Shown here one piece after another: positions 12,678 to 22,386 of a DNA stretch of 64,000 nt. The DNA comes from Ideonella alba (lineage in GTDB: Bacteria > Pseudomonadota > Gammaproteobacteria > Burkholderiales > Burkholderiaceae_C): contig NZ_JAGQDF010000001.1 in assembly GCF_018069875.1 (NCBI RefSeq), positions 124,001-188,000 on the forward strand, in the 5' to 3' direction. A program made the position numbers and the translations under genes. Every line of letters begins with the position of its first letter. Positions within the stretch are counted from its first letter, which is position 1. The notes under the pieces were generated by a model. That model ran no database searches and was not told where the DNA came from. It saw nothing but the letters and a program-made list of their open reading frames with translations.

Positions 12678-13217
12678 ATGAATGACATGCCCTTTTCCGC
12701 CGCCCAGGCCGACATGCGCCAGGGCTATCTGGATGGTGCGCCCGGCGTGCTCGCCTCGTCCCTGGCCTGGCTGGTGGCCGCCGGCGTGGCCTGGCAGGTC
12801 TCGGCCCCGGCCGCGGTGCTGACGCTGCTGGCCGGCGGTGCGCTGATCCACCCGGTGGGCGTGCTGCTGGCCCGGGCCCTGGGCCGACGTGGCGCACACA
12901 CGCCCGGCAACCCCCTGGCCAGGCTGGCGGTGGAGGGCACGCTGTGGATGCTGGCCGGCATCGCCGTGGCCTACGGCCTGCAGGTGCTGCGCATCGAGTG
13001 GTTCTTCCCGGCGATGCTGCTGGCCATCGGCGGCCGCTACCTGAGCTTCCAGACCCTGTATGGCTTGCGGGTCTACTGGGTGATGGGTGGCGTGTTGTGC
13101 GTGCTCGGTCTGGGCCTGGCCCTGGCCCGCGCGGCACCGGTGTCCGCGGCGCTGGCCGGCGGCCTGGTGGAGGCGGCCTTCGCCGCCGCCCTCCTGGCTC
13201 AGGCGCGCCGCGGCTGA
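12678..13217 (+). CDS. Small integral membrane protein (DUF7010-like)
   Basis: A 179-residue protein with an N-terminal soluble stretch (MNDMPFSAAQADMRQGYLDG) and about five or six predicted membrane spans. It starts 18 bp after the MarR gene on the same strand, so may be co-transcribed. The opening RQGYLDGAPGVLASSLAWL resembles what I remember of the DUF7010 group; that name is tentative and no function is known. Its 3' end overlaps the convergent VOC gene by 19 bp. Confidence 0.75.
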   Translation: MNDMPFSAAQADMRQGYLDGAPGVLASSLAWLVAAGVAWQVSAPAAVLTLLAGGALIHPVGVLLARALGRRGAHTPGNPLARLAVEGTLWMLAGIAVAYGLQVLRIEWFFPAMLLAIGGRYLSFQTLYGLRVYWVMGGVLCVLGLGLALARAAPVSAALAGGLVEAAFAAALLAQARRG

Positions 13218-13609
13218 TCGTCCTGCGGGGCGTGGCAGGCCACGCCCAGTTTGTTGCCGTCAGGGTCGCGGAAGTAGGCGCCCCAGTAGTGCGGGTGGTA
13301 GTGCGGCCGCAGCCCCGGCGGGCCTTCGCAACGGCCGCCCAGCGCCAGCGCGGTGGCGTGGGCGCGGTTCACCTGCTCGCGCGTGGCGGCCAGCAGTGCC
13401 ACCATCTGGCCGTTGCCGGGCGCGTGTTCGCCCGCGAACGGGTGGCCGATCAGCAGCAGCGGGCGCGGCCCGGGGCTGCTCTGCCAGCCGGCCCAGGGGC
13501 GGCTGCGGTCGACGAAGCGCGGTGCGATCTCCAGCACCTCGGCCAGCGCGCTGTAGAAGCCCAGCGCCCGCTCGAAATCGGTGACGCCGATGAACACATG
13601 GGACAGCAT
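13199..13609 (-). CDS. VOC (glyoxalase/bleomycin-resistance) superfamily protein
   Basis: A 136-residue single VOC module pair. It opens MLSHVFIGVTDFERALGFYS and ends with YFRDPDGNKLGVACH, the usual first and last strands carrying metal ligands (His4 and a late acidic residue). The fold covers dioxygenases, glyoxalases and antibiotic-binding proteins, so no reaction can be assigned. It is divergent from the Rieske oxygenase gene with only 30 bp between starts, a hint of joint regulation. Start ATG at 13609 is fixed by family length. Confidence 0.85.
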   Translation of the reverse strand: MLSHVFIGVTDFERALGFYSALAEVLEIAPRFVDRSRPWAGWQSSPGPRPLLLIGHPFAGEHAPGNGQMVALLAATREQVNRAHATALALGGRCEGPPGLRPHYHPHYWGAYFRDPDGNKLGVACHAPQDDQPRRA

Positions 13610-13639
13610 GGCCTGGCAGTCTACGGGGTAAGCTGGGCC

Positions 13640-14602: not shown

Positions 14603-15820
14603 TCAGGCCAGGTCCAGCGTCGGCACGCCCTGGTAGCGGCCGTCCAGGCACTGGGCCAGCACACAGGCCAGGCCCATGTCGCCGGTCCACAGGCCGTGCC
14701 AGGGCTGGCCGTGCTGTTGCTGCAGGGCCCGCATCTGGCCGATCGCATGCATCGCGAAGGCGCGCGCCCGCTGCAGCCAGCGCGCGTCGCCCTGGCGGGC
14801 ATGCAGCGCCAGCAGCGCCAGCGCGTTGCCGGCCGTGCCGTGGCAGACGCCATGGCCCTTGGCCAGCGGGCCGGCCTGCCAGATGGCTTCGCCAGCGGCC
14901 TCCAGCAGCGCCTCGAACCCGGCGTCAAGGTCCGAGGGCAGGGGGTGCATCGCGCACAGGATGCCCGGGGCGCCATGGCACCACTGCAGCAGGGCCAGCG
15001 CGCCGCCGGGGCGCGGGGTGTACAGGCCGGGCGGCCAGTTGGCCAGCGCGCCCTCGCGCCGCGCGGTGCGGCTCAGCGTGTCGATCGCCAGGGCCTGCAG
15101 CGCGGCGCGCTCGGACGCGGGCAGCCAGGGGCTGGCCAGCAGCAGCGCATGCAGGTTGCCGGCAAAGCCGTGGCCGGCGCCCAGGTAGATCACCTCGCGG
15201 CCATGGATGCCCTGGGTCCACACCTGGCAGCCGCTGTCGTCATGGCGGTGCAGGCCTGCCAGGACGGCGCTGACATTGGCGCGCAGTTCGTCGACGGCGC
15301 GTGGGTCGTTGGCCAGGTGCGCCAGGTGCCAGGCCCCGAGCATCGTGCCCGGGGCGCCCCACAGCGCCTCCTGGCTGGGGTGGTGGCGGTTGGCGGCCGC
15401 CACGGCCAGCAGGCGGCTGGCCGCGTCATCACGGCCGGTCAGCCGCCACTGCACCAGGCGCAGGCCAGCCTCGCCCAGGAACCAGGAGGGCAGGGGCTCG
15501 CCGTTGTCGGGCGCGCGCTGCCAGGCCGCGGCCAGCGCGTCAACGCGCGTCGCCGGGTCCCATGGCAGCGTGGCGTGGCCCTGGCGGCACAGCCACCACA
15601 GCGCCCACAGCAGGCCGGCGCCGCCCAGGTAGAGGCCCTTGAAGCCGCCCTCGGGGGTGTCGCCCTCGTCGTCGCGGGGATGCACGGGCCAGGTGCCGTC
15701 GGGGCGGGCAGCGGCCTCGCAGCTGCTGACGATCTCCTGCACGGTGGCGCGTGCAGCGTCCGCATCCCAGGCCGGTGCGTCCAGCGGCGTGTGTCGTTCG
15801 GGGTGGAAGATCAGGCTCAT
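14603..15820 (-). CDS. LanC-like protein resembling eukaryotic LANCL (zinc, glutathione-type)
   Basis: A 405-residue protein with the seven Gly-rich hairpin motifs of the LanC alpha/alpha-toroid, roughly at residues 63-69, 114-119, 153-158, 212-222, 279-286, 324-331 and 378-383. Predicted zinc ligands are Cys281 (QWCHGAPG), Cys326 and His327 (KGHGVCHGTAGN); His217 in YLGAGHGFAGN matches the catalytic-base motif. The KGxGxCHG form, with Lys321 five residues before the Cys, is a LANCL hallmark rather than a lantibiotic cyclase one. Known LANCLs add glutathione to dehydroamino acids. No LanB/LanM or precursor peptide gene is near. The start at 15820 is fixed by an ATGA overlap with the upstream acetyltransferase. 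Confidence 0.85.
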   Translation of the reverse strand: MSLIFHPERHTPLDAPAWDADAARATVQEIVSSCEAAARPDGTWPVHPRDDEGDTPEGGFKGLYLGGAGLLWALWWLCRQGHATLPWDPATRVDALAAAWQRAPDNGEPLPSWFLGEAGLRLVQWRLTGRDDAASRLLAVAAANRHHPSQEALWGAPGTMLGAWHLAHLANDPRAVDELRANVSAVLAGLHRHDDSGCQVWTQGIHGREVIYLGAGHGFAGNLHALLLASPWLPASERAALQALAIDTLSRTARREGALANWPPGLYTPRPGGALALLQWCHGAPGILCAMHPLPSDLDAGFEALLEAAGEAIWQAGPLAKGHGVCHGTAGNALALLALHARQGDARWLQRARAFAMHAIGQMRALQQQHGQPWHGLWTGDMGLACVLAQCLDGRYQGVPTLDLA

Positions 15821-16218
15821 CCGGGGCGCCATTCCATCAGTCGGTCGGGCGCGGCTGGCGGGCCGAAACCGAAGGGGCGGTACAGCTCGTGGGCGTCGCG
15901 CGTGGCCAGCAGCCAGCGGCGCAGGCCCTGGAGTTCGGGGTGGGTGGTGATCGCGCCCAGCAGCTGGCGGGCCAGACCGCGGCCGCGGTGCGACTCCAGC
16001 ACGTAGACATCGGCCAGGTAGGCGAAGCTGCTGCGGTCAGTGACCACCCGGGCGAAGCCCACCTGGGCGCCATCGTCATAGACGCCAAAGCACATCGAGT
16101 GGGCGATGGCGCGGGCCACCTTCTCGCGGGCGATGCCGGGCGACCAGTAGGAGCGGCTGAGGAAGGCGTGCACCGCGTCCAGGTCGATGCGCGCCGGGTC
16201 GTCGCTGACCTCGATCAT
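15817..16218 (-). CDS. GNAT-family N-acetyltransferase
   Basis: A 133-residue single-domain GNAT. The acetyl-CoA pyrophosphate loop is visible as ESHRGRGLARQLL at about residues 77-89, preceded by the strand YLADVYVLE. The short N-terminal part (DLDAVHAFLSRSYWSPGI) is common in the YjdJ/YitI-like subgroup. It overlaps the GST upstream and the LanC-like gene downstream by 4 bp each, so the three proteins are translationally coupled. The acetyl acceptor is unknown. Confidence 0.88.
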   Translation of the reverse strand: MIEVSDDPARIDLDAVHAFLSRSYWSPGIAREKVARAIAHSMCFGVYDDGAQVGFARVVTDRSSFAYLADVYVLESHRGRGLARQLLGAITTHPELQGLRRWLLATRDAHELYRPFGFGPPAAPDRLMEWRPG

Positions 16219-16838
16219 GGGGCGGCCACCACGCCGTCGCCGTGCGGCGCGCGCTGGAAGCTGGGCTGCTGTTCGGCCTGGGCCGACAGCGCTGCCAGCG
16301 TGGGGTAGGGCGCCGGGTCGACACCGCCCAGCGTGGCGATCAGGAAGTGCCAGACCACGGCGCTGGTGATCGCGTCCTGGGTGGGCTGCTGCCAGTCCAC
16401 CGGCTGGCCCGCATGGGCAGCCTCCAGCGCCGCCAGGCCGCCATGCAGCTGCATGGTCACGCGGTCGACCCAGGGCTGGTGGCGCTTCTCCTCGGGCCGG
16501 ATCGCCCGCTCGTAGACCAGCTGCACCGCCTTCTCGCAGGCCGCCAGTGCCAGGCCCAGGCGGTGCAGCGCCTGGCGGCGCCCGGGCAGCGTGCGGGGCA
16601 TCAGGCTGCGTGGCGCGGCCAGGGCCTCGGCGTAGTCCAGGATCAGCGTCGAATCGGTCAGCATGGTGCCGTCGTCGCAGACCAGCGTGGGGGCCTTGAC
16701 GACCGGGTTGATGCGGCGGAACTCGTCCACGTGGCGGAACACCGACAGGGGTCGGTGCTCGAAGGGCAGGCCCAGGGCCTGCAGCGAGACCGCCACGCGG
16801 CGGACATAGGGCGAATCAAGCATGCCGATGAGTTGCAT
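16215..16838 (-). CDS. Glutathione S-transferase
   Basis: A 207-residue cytosolic GST. The thioredoxin-like domain opens MQLIGMLDSPYVRRVAVSLQ, with Ser9 in the position of the activating residue. VVKAPTLVCDDGTMLTDSTLI supplies the cis-Pro and the Asp-Ser that hold the glutathione gamma-glutamyl group. The alpha-helical C-terminal domain follows from about residue 85. First gene of the operon GST-GNAT-LanC-like, all joined by 4-bp overlaps. It is divergent from the large alpha-2-macroglobulin gene. Together with the LANCL-like partner it suggests a glutathione-dependent job. Confidence 0.9.
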   Translation of the reverse strand: MQLIGMLDSPYVRRVAVSLQALGLPFEHRPLSVFRHVDEFRRINPVVKAPTLVCDDGTMLTDSTLILDYAEALAAPRSLMPRTLPGRRQALHRLGLALAACEKAVQLVYERAIRPEEKRHQPWVDRVTMQLHGGLAALEAAHAGQPVDWQQPTQDAITSAVVWHFLIATLGGVDPAPYPTLAALSAQAEQQPSFQRAPHGDGVVAAP

Positions 16839-16899
16839 CGCGGGGTTCCCGTCGTGGTGCTGTCCATAATCATCGCAAAGCACGCGGGGAGATGCATCC

Positions 16900-19800
16900 A
16901 TGGGAGCGATGATGGGGATCAGGCAGGCACTGGCGGCCGCGTTGTTCGGGGTGCTGCAGGGCGCGATGGCGGCCACCCAGCCGGCGGTGATCGACACCCG
17001 GCCTGGCGTCGATGCGGTGCTGGAAGGCCGCGGCTGGATCGCGCTGCGCCTGGCCGCTCCGTTGGCCGAGCCGCCGCAGGCGCTGTGCGACATCTGGGGC
17101 CTGCGCTCGGCGGTGCCGGTGGAGGTGGCGCAGGGCGCCCAGCGGCTGCAACTGCTGGACGCCGCCGGCGTGCCCGCATCGCAGCGCGATGCCGGTGCGG
17201 CCAAGCCCTGGACCGTGCTGCGCTGCCAGGCCGCCTTGCCCGACGGTGCGCCGCTGTCGCTGCGCTGGCTGCGTCCGCGGCGTGACGATGCTGCGGCCGG
17301 CCTGATGCTGTGGGACAGCCAGCGCCTGGACTTCCGTGCGCGCAGCGACTGGCCGCTCAGCGTGGAGTGCTCGCGCAGCACCCAGGGCAGCGGCTGCAGT
17401 CCGCTGGAGCCGGTCAGGGTGCAGTTCCAGCAGCCGGTGCGCCTGGCCGATCTGGCCAAGGTGCGCCTGAAGGCCGCCGATGGCTCGCTGGTGGCGCCGC
17501 GCGAGCCGGTCGCCAGCGGCGACGGGGTCGGCGACCAACTGGTGTTCGGACCGCTGTCGCCCAAGAGCCGCTACCAGCTGGTCTGGCCCAGCCCGCTGGC
17601 CGGGGCCGATGGCCGCGACCTGCTGGGTCGCGCGCGCACGCTGGCGCCGCTGCCGGTGCTGGTGGGCGACACGCCGCCGCTGGCCAAGTTCGGTGGCCGT
17701 TTCGGCATTGCGGAGCGGGCGATCGGCGGCGTGGTGCCGCTGACGGTGCGCCAGGTCGAAGGCAAGGGCGACACGGTGCAGGCCACGCTGCGCACGCTGC
17801 GCATCACCGACGACGCGACGATGATCCGCGCCTACCAGGAGCTGATGCGCGTCACGCAGGCTGATGACAGCCATGCCCGCCTGGGCGACGACTGGGCCGA
17901 GGGCGACGAGTCCGAACCCGACGCACCCGCTGCCCGCCAAGGGACCGCGGCCTTTCGCTACGCCTTCAAGTCCAAGCCCGATGCCGACACCCGCGCGCTG
18001 CCCTGGCTGAAGACGCTGCGCGAGGCCCGCAGCCAGGCGCTGCCGCGCCAGTTCGAGGGCCGCGCCTTCGAGGTGCTGGGCGTGCCGCTGCCGGAGCCCG
18101 GCCTGCACCTGATGGAGGTGGAGAGTCGCGCGCTGGGCCGCGGCCTGCTGGGCGGGGCGCAGACCATGTACGTGCGCGCCGGCGCGCTGGTCACCGACCT
18201 GGGCGTGCACCTGCACCTGTCCGAGCGCCAGGCCGCGGTGTGGGTGACGCGGCTGTCCAGCGGTCAGCCGGTGGCCGATGCGGCGGTCACGCTGTACGAC
18301 TGCCGGGCCAAGGTGCTCGCCCGCGGGCGCGCCAACACCCAGGGCTGGCTGACCTTGGCCGCGACCCAGGGCGACGACCGCTGGTCCTGCCCGGTCTTCG
18401 CCTTCGCCCATGTGGGCGACGACACCGGCTTCGTCAGCAGTCGCTGGCAGCAGGGCATCGAGACCTGGCGTTTCGAGCAGCTGCGCGACAGCTGGGCGCC
18501 CACCTCGGACCGCATCACCCACGCGGTGCTGGCGCGCTCGCTGCTGCGCCCGGGCGAGACCCTGCATGCGCGCCTGTACTGGCGCCGCATCGGCCCGCAT
18601 GGCGAGCTGCTGGCCCCCGACGCAGCGCAGCTGCCGCGCGCGATCGACCTGGTGCACCAGGGCAGTGGCGAGCGCCGCAGCCTGCCGGTGAGCTGGGACG
18701 CGCGCGGCCAGGCCGAGCTGGTCTGGCCGCTGCCCTCGGGCCTCAAGCGCGGCGCCTGGGCGCTGGCCTTTGGCGATGCCTATGGCGAGACCGTGCAGTT
18801 CCGCGTCGAGGAGTTCCGCCTGCCGCTGCTGAAGGCCGAGGTGCTGACGCCAACGGCCCCGCAGGTGCTGCCACCGATCAGCGACGGCCAGCCGGCGCGC
18901 GTGGCCGCCTCGCTGCGCCTGTCCTACCTGGCCGGTGGCGCGGCGGCGGGCGAGAGCGTCAAGCTGTCGCAGCGACTGGTGCCCCTGACGCCACGCTTCG
19001 AGCAGTTCGAGGGTTTCTGGTTCGGCTTTGATGACCGCTGGCGCAGCGAGGATGCCGGCAGCGAGGCCGCACTGGGCAGCACGGTCGAGGGCGAGGCGGT
19101 GGGCGATGAACGCGCCCGCACGCTGGACGCCCAGGGCACGCTGAAGGCGGAGGCGCTGGTCCAGCGACCGCTGGACCGCCCGCGCACCCTGGTCACCGAG
19201 ATGGAATACCGCGACCCCAACGGCGAAACCTACCGCGCCCAGGGCCGCACGCCGCTGTGGCCGGCGTCCTTCGTGCTGGGCATCCGCGCCGCGCCCTGGA
19301 GCCAAGAGGCCAGGCGCAGCGTCGAACTGCTCGCGGTGGACCCCAGCGGCAAGCCGGTGCCCGACGCCGCGGTGCGGCTGGAAGGCGGCTGGGACGGCTA
19401 TGTTTCGTACCGCCGCCGCTCAGTGGGCGGCTTCTACGGCTACGCGAGCGAGCGCCGCGAGTACCGGCCCGAGCCCGTCTGCGAAGGCCGCACCGACGCC
19501 CAGGGCCGGCTGCGCTGCCAGGTGGCGCCCACGATGGACGGCCTGGACGCGGGCGAGTACACACTGCGCGGCACCGCCACCGACGCCCAGGGCCGCCAGG
19601 CCCGGGTGGGCACCACGCTGTGGTTCTATGGCGGCGGCGAGCTGTGGTTCGCCCAGGGCGACCACGACCGCATCGATGTGCTGTCCGAGAAGACCCGCTT
19701 CAAGCCCGGCGAGACCGCCACGCTGCAGGTGCGCTCGCCCTTCCGCGAGGCCACCGCCTGGGTCAACGTGATGCGCGGCGGCCAGGTGGTCGACACGCTG

Positions 19801-22386
19801 GTGCTGCCGATCAGCGGCCAGCAGCCGCAGATCAGCCTGCCGATCAAGCCCAGCTATGCGCCCAACGTGTTCGTCAACGTGCTGGTGATGCGCGGCCGCG
19901 TGGCCGAGCCGCCGGCCACCGCGCTGGTCGACCTGGCGCGCCCGGCCTTCAAGCTGGGCCTGGTGGGACTGCAGGTGGGGGCCGACGGGCAGAAGCTGGC
20001 CGTGTCGGTGAAGACCGACAAGCCGGCCTACCAGACCCGTGAGAAGGCGCGCGTGTCCCTGCAGGTGCGTGCGGCCGACGGCGCGCTGCCGGCCCAGCGC
20101 GAGGCCACGGTCTTCGTCGTCGACGAGGCATTGCTGGAGCTGATGCCCAACACCAGCTGGGATCTGTTCAGCGTGATGTTGGCGCGGCGCGGCTATGGCT
20201 TCGAGACCGCCAGCGCCGCGATGCAGGTGCTGGGCAAGCGCCACTACGGCCGCAAGGCGCTGCCCCCGGGCGGCGGGGGCGGGCGCAGCGCCGCGCGCGA
20301 GCTGTTCGACACCCTGCTGCTGTGGCAGGCCGCGGTGCCGCTGGATGCCGAGGGCCGCGCCACGGTGGAGGTGCCGATCAACGACAGCCTGACGCGCTTT
20401 CGCGTAGTGGCGGTGGCTGATGCTGGCAGCGATCGCTTTGGCACCGGCGAGGCCAGCTTCACCGTCAGCAAGGACCTGCAGCTGTTTTCCGGCTTGCCGG
20501 CCACGGTGCGCGAAGGCGACCGCTTCAGCGCCGGCTTCACGCTGCGCAACACCACCAGCGCGCCGATGAAGATCAGCGTGCAGGCCACGCTGGGCGGCCA
20601 GGCGCTGCCGGCGCGCAGCCTGAGCCTGGCCGGCGGCGAGGCGCGCGGCGTGGACTGGCCGGTCGACGTGCCGGCTGGCGCCAGCGCGTTGGAGTGGAGC
20701 GTGCAGGCGCGCGGCGAAGGGCCCGGCGGCGTGCGCGAGGACGCGCTGAAGCTGCGCCAGCCGGTGCACTCGCCGCTGCAGCCGCTGCGCTACGACGTCG
20801 GCCTGCTGAAGCTGCAGCCCGGCGCCGACGCGCAGACCCTCGGCGTGCAGCCGCCCACCGGCAGCCTGGCCGGACGCGGCGAGGTGCGTGTCAGCCTGGC
20901 CCCGGCGCTGGCTGCCGACGCCTCGGGCGTGCGCGCCTACATGCGGGGCTACCCCTTCGCCTGCCTGGAGCAGCGCACCAGCAAGGCGGTGTCGCTGCGC
21001 GACCCGGCGCTGTGGCGCGTGATCAGCGAGGGCATCGATGCCTACCAGACCTCCAGCGGCCTGCTGACCTACTACCCCGGCAGCGGCAACGCCGATCAGG
21101 GCTTCGATGTGCTGACCAGCTATGTGCTGTCGGTGGCCCACGAAGCCGGCCTGAGCCTGCCCGAGGACGCCCAGCGCCGCGCACTGGATGCGCTGGAGCA
21201 GTTCGTGCGCGGCCGGCTGACGCTGCGCTGGGACTACTGGGGCGGCGACGGCCTGGACCTGACCGAGCGCAAGCTGCTGGCGCTCGAAGCCTTGTCGCGC
21301 TGGCGCAAGCTGCCGCCCGCACTGGGTGAGAGCCTGCGCCTGGACCCGGCCAAGGACCTGCCCAGGCTGAGCCACCGGGCCATCGTGCAGTGGCTGGACC
21401 TGCTGCAGCGCACCCGCTGGCCGCGCCAGGACGAGGCCACGGCCGCGGCGCTGGCCGAGCTGGACAAACGCCTGGTCGATGACGGCCAGGGGGGCCTGCG
21501 CCTGCGCACCCGCGCCGAGGAGCGCCGCTGGTACTTCATGTACAGCGAACCCGTCAGCCAGGTCCGGCTGGCGCTGCTGGCGCTGGACCACCCGGCGCTG
21601 AAGGCTCGCGCCGATGCGCTGGCGCGCGGTGCGCTGCACCTGCAGAACCCCGGCGGCCATTGGTGGGACACCCAGGCCAATGTCTGGGGCGCGCTGATGC
21701 TGGACAAGCGCGCCCGCCAGGCCAGTGGCGAAATTACCGGCAGCACCGTGCTGGCCCTGGGCACACAGACGCGCACCCACGACTGGGCCCGCCAGCCCGC
21801 GGGCGAGACCTATGTCTTCAGCGCCGAGGGTCTGGGCCCGCAGCGCCCGGGCGCGGTGGCCGCCCGCCACCTGGGCACCGGCCAGCCGGTGCTGACCGCG
21901 CAGGCCAGCGCGCTGGGACCGCTCACCAGCGCGCAGGCCCATGGTGCCGAGCTCAGCCGCAGCGTGCGCGCCCTCAAGCAGGCCCGGCCCGGCCAATGGA
22001 GCGTGGGCGACGTGCTGGAGGTGACGCTGCGCTGGCGCCTGCAGCAGCCCGGCGGCGCACTGGTGGTCAGCGACCCCATCCCCAGCGGCGCCACGCTGCT
22101 GGGCAGCGGCCTGAAGGGCCAGGCCCCCGTGGATGCCGGCGGCGGGCGGCGCGGCTGGCGACGCGAGGACGGCAGCTGGGAGGCCTGGCCGGCCTACATC
22201 GAGCGCGGCTTCACCCAGGTGCGCGCCTACTACGAGTACCTGTGGGGCGAGGGGCCGTTCACGATGACCTACCAGCTGCGCCTGAACAACGCCGGCCGCT
22301 TTGCGCTGCCGCCGGTGCAACTGGAGGCGATGTACGACCCCGAGGTCTGGGCCGCGCTGCCGGGCAGCACGGTGGAGGTGAAGTGA
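16900..22386 (+). CDS. Bacterial alpha-2-macroglobulin with thioester motif
   Basis: An 1828-residue periplasmic protease trap, matching the length of E. coli YfhM/ECAM (about 1650) and longer relatives. A signal peptide ends near GAMAA (residues 1 to about 25). Several macroglobulin-like beta domains follow, then the thioester motif CLEQ at residues 1355-1358 inside YPFACLEQRTSKAV, in the toroid domain, and a C-terminal receptor-binding-like domain. These proteins trap attacking proteases when the cell wall is breached. The start has GGGGAG about 8 nt upstream. Unlike E. coli ECAM, no lipobox Cys is present, so it may be soluble in the periplasm. Its stop overlaps pbpC (GTGA), the usual partnership. 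Confidence 0.93.
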   Translation: MGAMMGIRQALAAALFGVLQGAMAATQPAVIDTRPGVDAVLEGRGWIALRLAAPLAEPPQALCDIWGLRSAVPVEVAQGAQRLQLLDAAGVPASQRDAGAAKPWTVLRCQAALPDGAPLSLRWLRPRRDDAAAGLMLWDSQRLDFRARSDWPLSVECSRSTQGSGCSPLEPVRVQFQQPVRLADLAKVRLKAADGSLVAPREPVASGDGVGDQLVFGPLSPKSRYQLVWPSPLAGADGRDLLGRARTLAPLPVLVGDTPPLAKFGGRFGIAERAIGGVVPLTVRQVEGKGDTVQATLRTLRITDDATMIRAYQELMRVTQADDSHARLGDDWAEGDESEPDAPAARQGTAAFRYAFKSKPDADTRALPWLKTLREARSQALPRQFEGRAFEVLGVPLPEPGLHLMEVESRALGRGLLGGAQTMYVRAGALVTDLGVHLHLSERQAAVWVTRLSSGQPVADAAVTLYDCRAKVLARGRANTQGWLTLAATQGDDRWSCPVFAFAHVGDDTGFVSSRWQQGIETWRFEQLRDSWAPTSDRITHAVLARSLLRPGETLHARLYWRRIGPHGELLAPDAAQLPRAIDLVHQGSGERRSLPVSWDARGQAELVWPLPSGLKRGAWALAFGDAYGETVQFRVEEFRLPLLKAEVLTPTAPQVLPPISDGQPARVAASLRLSYLAGGAAAGESVKLSQRLVPLTPRFEQFEGFWFGFDDRWRSEDAGSEAALGSTVEGEAVGDERARTLDAQGTLKAEALVQRPLDRPRTLVTEMEYRDPNGETYRAQGRTPLWPASFVLGIRAAPWSQEARRSVELLAVDPSGKPVPDAAVRLEGGWDGYVSYRRRSVGGFYGYASERREYRPEPVCEGRTDAQGRLRCQVAPTMDGLDAGEYTLRGTATDAQGRQARVGTTLWFYGGGELWFAQGDHDRIDVLSEKTRFKPGETATLQVRSPFREATAWVNVMRGGQVVDTLVLPISGQQPQISLPIKPSYAPNVFVNVLVMRGRVAEPPATALVDLARPAFKLGLVGLQVGADGQKLAVSVKTDKPAYQTREKARVSLQVRAADGALPAQREATVFVVDEALLELMPNTSWDLFSVMLARRGYGFETASAAMQVLGKRHYGRKALPPGGGGGRSAARELFDTLLLWQAAVPLDAEGRATVEVPINDSLTRFRVVAVADAGSDRFGTGEASFTVSKDLQLFSGLPATVREGDRFSAGFTLRNTTSAPMKISVQATLGGQALPARSLSLAGGEARGVDWPVDVPAGASALEWSVQARGEGPGGVREDALKLRQPVHSPLQPLRYDVGLLKLQPGADAQTLGVQPPTGSLAGRGEVRVSLAPALAADASGVRAYMRGYPFACLEQRTSKAVSLRDPALWRVISEGIDAYQTSSGLLTYYPGSGNADQGFDVLTSYVLSVAHEAGLSLPEDAQRRALDALEQFVRGRLTLRWDYWGGDGLDLTERKLLALEALSRWRKLPPALGESLRLDPAKDLPRLSHRAIVQWLDLLQRTRWPRQDEATAAALAELDKRLVDDGQGGLRLRTRAEERRWYFMYSEPVSQVRLALLALDHPALKARADALARGALHLQNPGGHWWDTQANVWGALMLDKRARQASGEITGSTVLALGTQTRTHDWARQPAGETYVFSAEGLGPQRPGAVAARHLGTGQPVLTAQASALGPLTSAQAHGAELSRSVRALKQARPGQWSVGDVLEVTLRWRLQQPGGALVVSDPIPSGATLLGSGLKGQAPVDAGGGRRGWRREDGSWEAWPAYIERGFTQVRAYYEYLWGEGPFTMTYQLRLNNAGRFALPPVQLEAMYDPEVWAALPGSTVEVK

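Follow-up and report, generated by a model that had tools for sequence, protein, structure and literature searches.

What does a protein with the fold of the lanthipeptide cyclases do in a locus without the appearance of a lanthipeptide system? The question is raised by a gene of Ideonella alba lying in a stretch of 64,000 nucleotides (positions 124,001 to 188,000 of contig NZ_JAGQDF010000001.1), referred to here as the window. The gene, at window positions 14603-15820 on the minus strand, encodes a LanC-like protein of 405 residues from its second ATG (Pfam PF05147, LANC_like, 8.7e-23) and is preceded by the genes of a glutathione S-transferase (GST) and of a GNAT acetyltransferase. The initial annotation had read these three genes as a possible operon system in which glutathione would be added to electrophiles or to dehydroamino acids by a protein related to the mammalian LANCL enzymes. 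Our analysis retains the kinship and finds the operon not to be conserved: the protein is of the LANCL type and is not placed with the lanthipeptide cyclases, and the new element with respect to the literature consulted is a bacterial sister branch of the LanCLs, rather than an operon.

The kinship is drawn from several comparisons. A profile of the family, built from 93 sequences and run against the chains of solved structures, matches human LANCL2 at 3.5e-44, human LANCL1 at 6.4e-41 and Arabidopsis GCR2 at 4.3e-37, and the lanthipeptide enzymes LicM2 and NisC at 1.4e-12 and 1.3e-4. The AlphaFold2 model of the protein (75 sequences in the alignment, mean pLDDT 95.9, pTM 0.94) was compared by Foldseek with the PDB, and chains of GCR2, LanCL1 and LanCL2 occupy ranks 1-9 by E-value, the lanthipeptide cyclases coming after them. 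A tree of 44 rows separates the 3 eukaryotic LanCLs and 23 members of the family from 18 lanthipeptide-type domains with a branch support of 97/96, and in a tree of 51 rows the support for the same separation reaches 100/97; both trees are unrooted, include only 3 eukaryotic rows and have long branches among the lanthipeptide-type rows. These 18 rows are the two solved chains LicM2 and NisC and 16 sequences from PF05147 loci ranked by the family profile, which were classed by their length and by motif reading; some of them (L200, L201 and L205) may be other LanC proteins. Finally, a profile made of the three eukaryotic chains only gives 65-120 bits to all 23 family rows and at most 48 bits to all 18 lanthipeptide-type rows. 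The fold alone would not have settled the matter: it cannot tell LanCLs from LanCs, and the TM-score of the lanthipeptide cyclase MadC (0.72) falls within the range of the LanCL chains (0.67-0.76).

The residues of the active site extend this kinship. They are numbered here from the first in-frame Met of the reading frame (409 residues), so that the Cys281, Cys326, His327 and His217 initially pointed out, which were counted from the second Met and stand 4 lower, are C285, C330, H331 and H221. Conservation was counted in 96 aligned members out of 104 unique loci, 8 having been dropped for stops or length; the 104 result from the deduplication of 109 loci with a LanC-like open reading frame on identical C-terminal 250 residues, and they include a weak match that is probably another LanC kind (L060) and a fragment (L059), L061 being excluded since it has no open reading frame. 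In human LANCL1, the zinc ligands are Cys276, Cys322 and His323, the acid is His219, and His277 acts on the carbonyl and stabilises the enolate, as described in PMC9934072. The corresponding zinc ligands C285, C330 and H331 and the acid H221 are present in all 96 members. The counterpart of His277, H286, is found in 95 of them and also in lanthipeptide-type rows, LicM2 among several others, and it is therefore not exclusive to the LanCLs. More discriminating is K325, the counterpart of LANCL1 Lys317, located five residues before the second zinc Cys: it is a Lys in 95/96 members and in the 3 eukaryotic rows, and in none of the 14 lanthipeptide-type rows that are readable at this position. Both sites can be located on the minus strand of the window. 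The motif KGHGVCHGTAGN (14825-14860), which begins at K325 and had rightly been recognised as a LANCL form, carries the zinc ligands C330 and H331, and the QWCHG motif (14972-14986) carries Q283, C285 and H286, conserved in 96, 96 and 95 of the 96 members, respectively.

From this set of residues, a LanCL-kind chemistry is likely for the family. The protein would be a zinc enzyme of the alpha-toroid type, in which the metal held by C285, C330 and H331 would activate the thiolate of a small thiol. On the acceptor, a dehydroalanine or dehydrobutyrine residue, the carbonyl would be polarised by H286, and the adduct formed would receive its proton from H221. In the window host the thiol would most likely be glutathione, and the targets would most likely be dehydroamino acids arising in proteins or peptides. 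We consider that this explanation, a stand-alone bacterial LanCL by which dehydroalanine or dehydrobutyrine receives a small thiol, in this host probably glutathione, has an even chance of being correct.

Several observations weigh against it. Some concern catalysis itself: no source of dehydroamino acids was identified, and a locus of an alphaproteobacterial-looking genome (L190 in G928, 859-2109), found later and lying outside the 96 aligned members, reads QHYHGAPG, the first zinc Cys being replaced by Tyr. This Cys is present in L189, a close relative of L190. Together with the wide variation of the neighbouring genes, L190 would favour a protein that has the LanC fold but no catalytic activity and that serves in binding or regulation; the invariance of the zinc ligands and of the acid His in the aligned members speaks against such a protein, and we regard it as the least probable of the explanations weighed here. 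Others concern glutathione. PMC9934072 lists seven contacts of LANCL1 with glutathione: Arg4, Lys317, His274, His323, Arg364, Asp367 and Glu374. Those at the gamma-glutamyl end are not kept in the family. The position of His274 is a Gln (Q283) in 96/96 members, Asp367 aligns with Q376, a position that is mostly Q or R among 51 rows, Glu374 aligns with T383, a Thr in 87/96, Arg364 aligns with a variable site, and Arg4 cannot be aligned, R13 being a candidate counterpart. Clear retention is limited to the Lys and the zinc His. The gamma-glutamyl contacts being replaced, the binding of this moiety must differ from that in LANCL1, if glutathione is used. The family possesses conserved N-terminal positions of its own, namely H14, W22, W48, H51 and D54.

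Which thiol, then, would be the nucleophile? The presence of glutathione synthetase (gshB) in the carrier genomes was taken as a guide, a strong match being defined as PF02955 with E <= 6.2e-51. With this threshold, gshB is found in 22/50 carrier genomes of one set and in 43/47 of the other (30/50 and 43/47 at the Pfam cut-off), one genome, G699, being in both and the own genome being included with a match of 2.5e-73. The 8 additional matches over the Pfam cut-off (2.8e-15 to 1.6e-5) were judged to be probable other ATP-grasp enzymes, because the family also matches in Bacillus and archaeal controls. No strong gshB was found in the 26 actinobacterial carriers, 8 of which have a weak PF02955 match, over the Pfam cut-off in 6; a result of 0/26 is hard to explain by assembly gaps, even though most carriers without a strong match are metagenome-assembled genomes (MAGs) by their title. 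A strong match is likewise lacking in single members titled Eremiobacterota, Bradymonadaceae, Myxococcaceae and Bdellovibrionaceae, in one Rubrivivax MAG and in G442. MshC was not found over its cut-off in any of 32 carriers; every genome gives matches below the cut-off, which we presume, from homology, to be cysteinyl-tRNA synthetase. Among 28 carriers that lack a strong gshB match, 27 have ligases of the GCS2 type, a family that covers more than one function and is also matched by E. coli. The family thus persists in genomes that have neither a strong gshB nor an MshC over cut-off, which also weighs against the explanation given above.

These observations give weight to an explanation in which the fold and the chemistry are those of a LanCL and the ancestral or general nucleophile is another thiol, gamma-glutamylcysteine, cysteine, ergothioneine and coenzyme A (CoA) being candidates, the use of glutathione in Proteobacteria being secondary or absent. 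The lack of conservation of the gamma-glutamyl contacts alongside a conserved catalytic core is in its favour as well. Against it, K325, whose counterpart contacts the glycine end of glutathione in LANCL1, hardly ever varies, R13 is the same in all gshB-positive carriers, the weak PF02955 matches and the prevalence of MAGs soften the actinobacterial result, GCS2 is not specific, and an unrelated enzyme may stand in for GshB. We hold this explanation to be possible, although doubtful.

The lysine itself had initially been described as contacting glutathione. Its alignment with Lys317 stands; however, K325 is a Lys in 31/32 carriers without a strong gshB and therefore, taken alone, is no mark of glutathione, and the replacement of His274, Asp367 and Glu374 points the same way. 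R13, beside the almost invariant H14, is an Arg in 60/60 gshB-positive carriers and in 6/32 others. As a marker of glutathione it was nevertheless rejected: a quick tree requires 2 changes at this position and offers 3 independent pairs for gshB (starred branches), which are too few events, and in the order of mutual information R13 comes 14th among the 409 columns (51 rows), so that phylogeny alone may explain it. We also observed that R13 and R281 (Arg or Lys at 281) are almost mutually exclusive in the 96 members: 66 have the first without the second, 25 the second without the first, 1 both and 1 neither, 3 being gapped. This swap needs about 2 changes on the tree, the switch following Actinomycetota, and again rests on too few independent events.

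Could the protein nonetheless be a lanthipeptide cyclase, that is, an enzyme of a ribosomally synthesised and post-translationally modified peptide (RiPP), working with an unlinked dehydratase and precursor? Class I LanC cyclases act with a LanB dehydratase and a precursor peptide. Membership of PF05147, a best NCBIfam match to the class IV LanL (84 bits for a cut-off of 650) and a LanB-N protein encoded on another contig of the same genome would plead for this. The initial statement that no LanB is present holds for the neighbourhood and not for the genome: none was found among the five window proteins scanned, precursor peptides not having been searched for, and one LanB-N protein exists elsewhere. 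This protein of 864 residues (L215:6350-8944, contig C12 of the own genome) is encoded between two large genes that read like adenylation proteins of non-ribosomal peptide synthetases, an unusual pairing. No dehydratase was found linked or fused to the LanC-like protein, whose reading frame stands alone, LanM and kinase-type dehydratase domains not having been searched separately. Among 64 carrier genomes searched, LanB-N (PF04738) is matched in 9 and not in the 55 others, Ideonella aquatica (G686) among them, and LANC_like is matched only once in the own genome, no second such protein, a LanM for example, having been found. The tree and the profiles already place the protein with the LanCLs, and the alternative clade joining the eukaryotic LanCLs with six LanM-type rows and leaving the family outside was rejected with an approximately unbiased test (p-AU 0.005); this hypothesis was picked after the tree had been seen, prompted by PMC9934072, where LanMs are said to be the closer kin of LanCLs. 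A role as lanthipeptide cyclase thus appears very improbable.

The comparison with characterised proteins leads to the same placement. Class I LanC cyclases such as NisC and MadC share the fold and the type of zinc site, but in NisC the first zinc Cys is followed by a Tyr, and the second has no Lys at position -5. The cyclase domains of LanM (LicM2) and of the class III/IV enzymes (ThurKC, CuvL) also share the LanC fold, but are parts of large multi-domain enzymes and form a separate branch. With the eukaryotic LanCLs, human LANCL1 and LANCL2 and Arabidopsis GCR2, the window protein has in common a stand-alone alpha-toroid, the Cys-Cys-His zinc site, the acid His and WCHGAPG with the LanCL-type His, besides the Lys, and they are its nearest relatives by profile, Foldseek E-value and tree. 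It differs from them in being bacterial, in an identity of about 18-21% in the fold alignment, in the residues replacing His274, Asp367 and Glu374, and in the conserved N-terminal positions of its family.

It was the rarity of these neighbours at other loci that decided against a conserved operon. The genes of GST (16215-16838, minus strand; 207 residues; Pfam GST_N_3 8.7e-24) and GNAT (15817-16218, minus strand; 133 residues; Pfam Acetyltransf_1 2.9e-15) lie on the same strand as the LanC-like gene, in the order GST, GNAT, LanC-like, and overlap by 4 bp, so that the three genes and their layout were correctly described from the outset. The nearest named relative, I. aquatica 4Y11, has the same three genes and a LanC-like protein that is 95% identical. 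The ratios of non-synonymous to synonymous substitutions (dN/dS) between the two genomes, 0.08 for GST, 0.10 for GNAT and 0.33 for the LanC-like gene, indicate purifying selection on all three genes, which are therefore most likely functional in both. These overlaps and this selection speak for a pathway resembling the mercapturate route, in which GST, GNAT and LanCL would in sequence glutathionylate, process and N-acetylate an electrophile. Yet homologues of GST and GNAT adjoin the LanC-like gene in only 2 of the 104 unique loci, the window and I. aquatica, examined over stretches of at most about 6 kb on each side, some of them ended by contig ends. The genomes G264, G488 and G528 each possess a close homologue of every one of these genes, but far apart or on separate contigs. 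Close homologues of GST occur in 49 and of GNAT in 24 of 200 genomes of the host's taxonomic family, the own genome included. Of the 50 GST matches listed, 20 loci were read together with 1.5 kb of flanking sequence either way, and among these GNAT or the LanC-like gene is a neighbour only in the own locus. Furthermore, the operon has only three genes and offers no peptidase step. A GST-GNAT-LanCL operon conserved beyond these two Ideonella genomes was thus rejected, the pathway it was to serve is unlikely, and the mercapturate-like role proposed for GNAT has the proximity of the genes as its only footing. We would conclude that GST and GNAT are probably co-transcribed with the LanCL in two close Ideonella-type genomes, and that they are probably a local arrangement that need not share its pathway. 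At the Myxococcaceae locus L113, a GNAT homologue of 62% identity lies on the opposite strand, 2.2 kb away from the LanC-like gene, which was taken as chance.

No conserved alternative partner of the LanC-like gene was found among 79 upstream genes and 148 further near neighbours. An operon-like upstream gene was called at 51/104 loci, of many different kinds, six loci having no gene called upstream since the stretch stops at that point; the calls were made with a home-made gene caller that missed the window GST. Among the first 25 of 129 families, the 79 operon-like upstream genes comprise 11 CoA-transferases, 4 acyl-CoA dehydrogenases, 3 PP2C, 3 Acetyltransf_1 and 2 GST_N_3, and the set with the two GST_N genes includes those of the window and of I. 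aquatica. The 148 further genes were picked from 428 remaining ones of 60-1200 codons; their commonest families are glyoxalase and GNAT, with 5 each (first 25 of 247 families), and neither the other 280 nor any gene outside these size limits was scanned there, so that single GST genes may lie nearby. The neighbours being of many kinds, the LanC-like gene looks self-sufficient. The CoA-transferases belong to a group of related genomes in the host's taxonomic family, and the acyl-CoA dehydrogenases to some Actinomycetota; at four actinobacterial loci (L119, L122, L128 and L129) the upstream gene, apparently an acyl-CoA dehydrogenase, overlaps the LanC-like gene by 8 bp. In three Burkholderiales loci (L067:2931-7215, L068:2995-7230 and L079:2789-7242), a type VI secretion FHA gene (PF20232), a PP2C phosphatase gene and the LanC-like gene follow one another in the same direction; a link of the LanCL to phospho-signalling would fit the formation of dehydroalanine and dehydrobutyrine at phosphosites.

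Members of the LanC-like family occur in Pseudomonadota, Myxococcota and Actinomycetota. With the protein as query, matches were obtained in 25/299 genomes of the host's taxonomic family and in 5/399 genomes of its order, each count including the own genome and one weak match. Of 118 loci, 80 were kept, among them Burkholderiales, other Proteobacteria, Nannocystis, Sorangium and many actinobacterial MAGs. The PF05147 profile matches 10/299 genomes of the host's phylum and 13/198 of the phylum of a Gaiella (G707), counts in which the LanCL-type family is mixed with lanthipeptide-type proteins.

How does such a family relate to what has been described? PMC9934072 treats LanCLs as eukaryotic enzymes by which dehydroamino acids are capped with glutathione, and associates the bacterial LanC fold with the making of lanthipeptides. 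A 2024 analysis (PMC11251773) sets the alignable eukaryotic domains apart from all bacterial sequences of its set, and could not order damage repair and lanthipeptide synthesis in time. A mining of RefSeq in 2020 (PMC7268733) left 3052 LanC-domain sequences unclassified, 1392 after two groups had been set aside, some of these 1392 being weighed as a possible new RiPP class. The LanCL-type bacterial family may be among those unclassified sequences; its kinship as found here is with the LanCLs. No bacterial LanCL family is described in the titles and abstract starts of the open PMC matches listed, a collection in which subscription papers and preprints are mostly outside. We would tentatively propose that bacteria own a LanCL branch, the closest bacterial kin of the animal and plant LanCLs, which caps or repairs dehydroalanine and dehydrobutyrine of proteins with the small thiol available. 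If so, the repair function may go back as far as lanthipeptide synthesis, or further, and an Arg near the N-terminus would mark the members that use glutathione. A bacterial sister branch with the catalytic set of the LanCLs and no consistent lanthipeptide partner makes the question of which came first, repair or synthesis, testable in bacteria, for instance in Ideonella, Nannocystis and Sorangium, and the presence of a LanCL in genomes without a strong match to glutathione synthetase provides a natural test of thiol specificity. It also calls for caution in genome mining, a LANC_like match not always denoting a lanthipeptide cluster.

As for the details of the locus, the reading frame of the LanC-like gene extends over 14603-15832 on the minus strand, with a first in-frame ATG at 15832 (409 residues) and a second at 15820 (405 residues). 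The second is the likelier start because it fits better the N-termini of the relatives, which begin at most about 2 residues from this Met; the overlap with the GNAT gene is 4 bp from the second ATG and 16 bp from the first. The nearest solved chain by sequence is 3lxt for GST, with YibF (4ibp) more distant, and 2ozh (XCC2953) for GNAT. Between GST and a large divergent gene (16900-22386), which we take to be alpha-2-macroglobulin-like, lies an intergenic stretch of 61 bp (16839-16899), nearly identical in I. aquatica and the likely site of the operon promoter. At the other end, a Rieske oxygenase gene is convergent with the LanC-like gene. The LanC-like genes of Ideonella oryzae and Ideonella sp. 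B508-1 have beside them a gene resembling those of the vicinal oxygen chelate (VOC)/glyoxalase family (L075:7241-7603 and L076:7250-7654), and a homologue is found at 13199-13621 of the window, about 1 kb from the LanC-like gene, despite an identity of about 51% between the LanC-like proteins.

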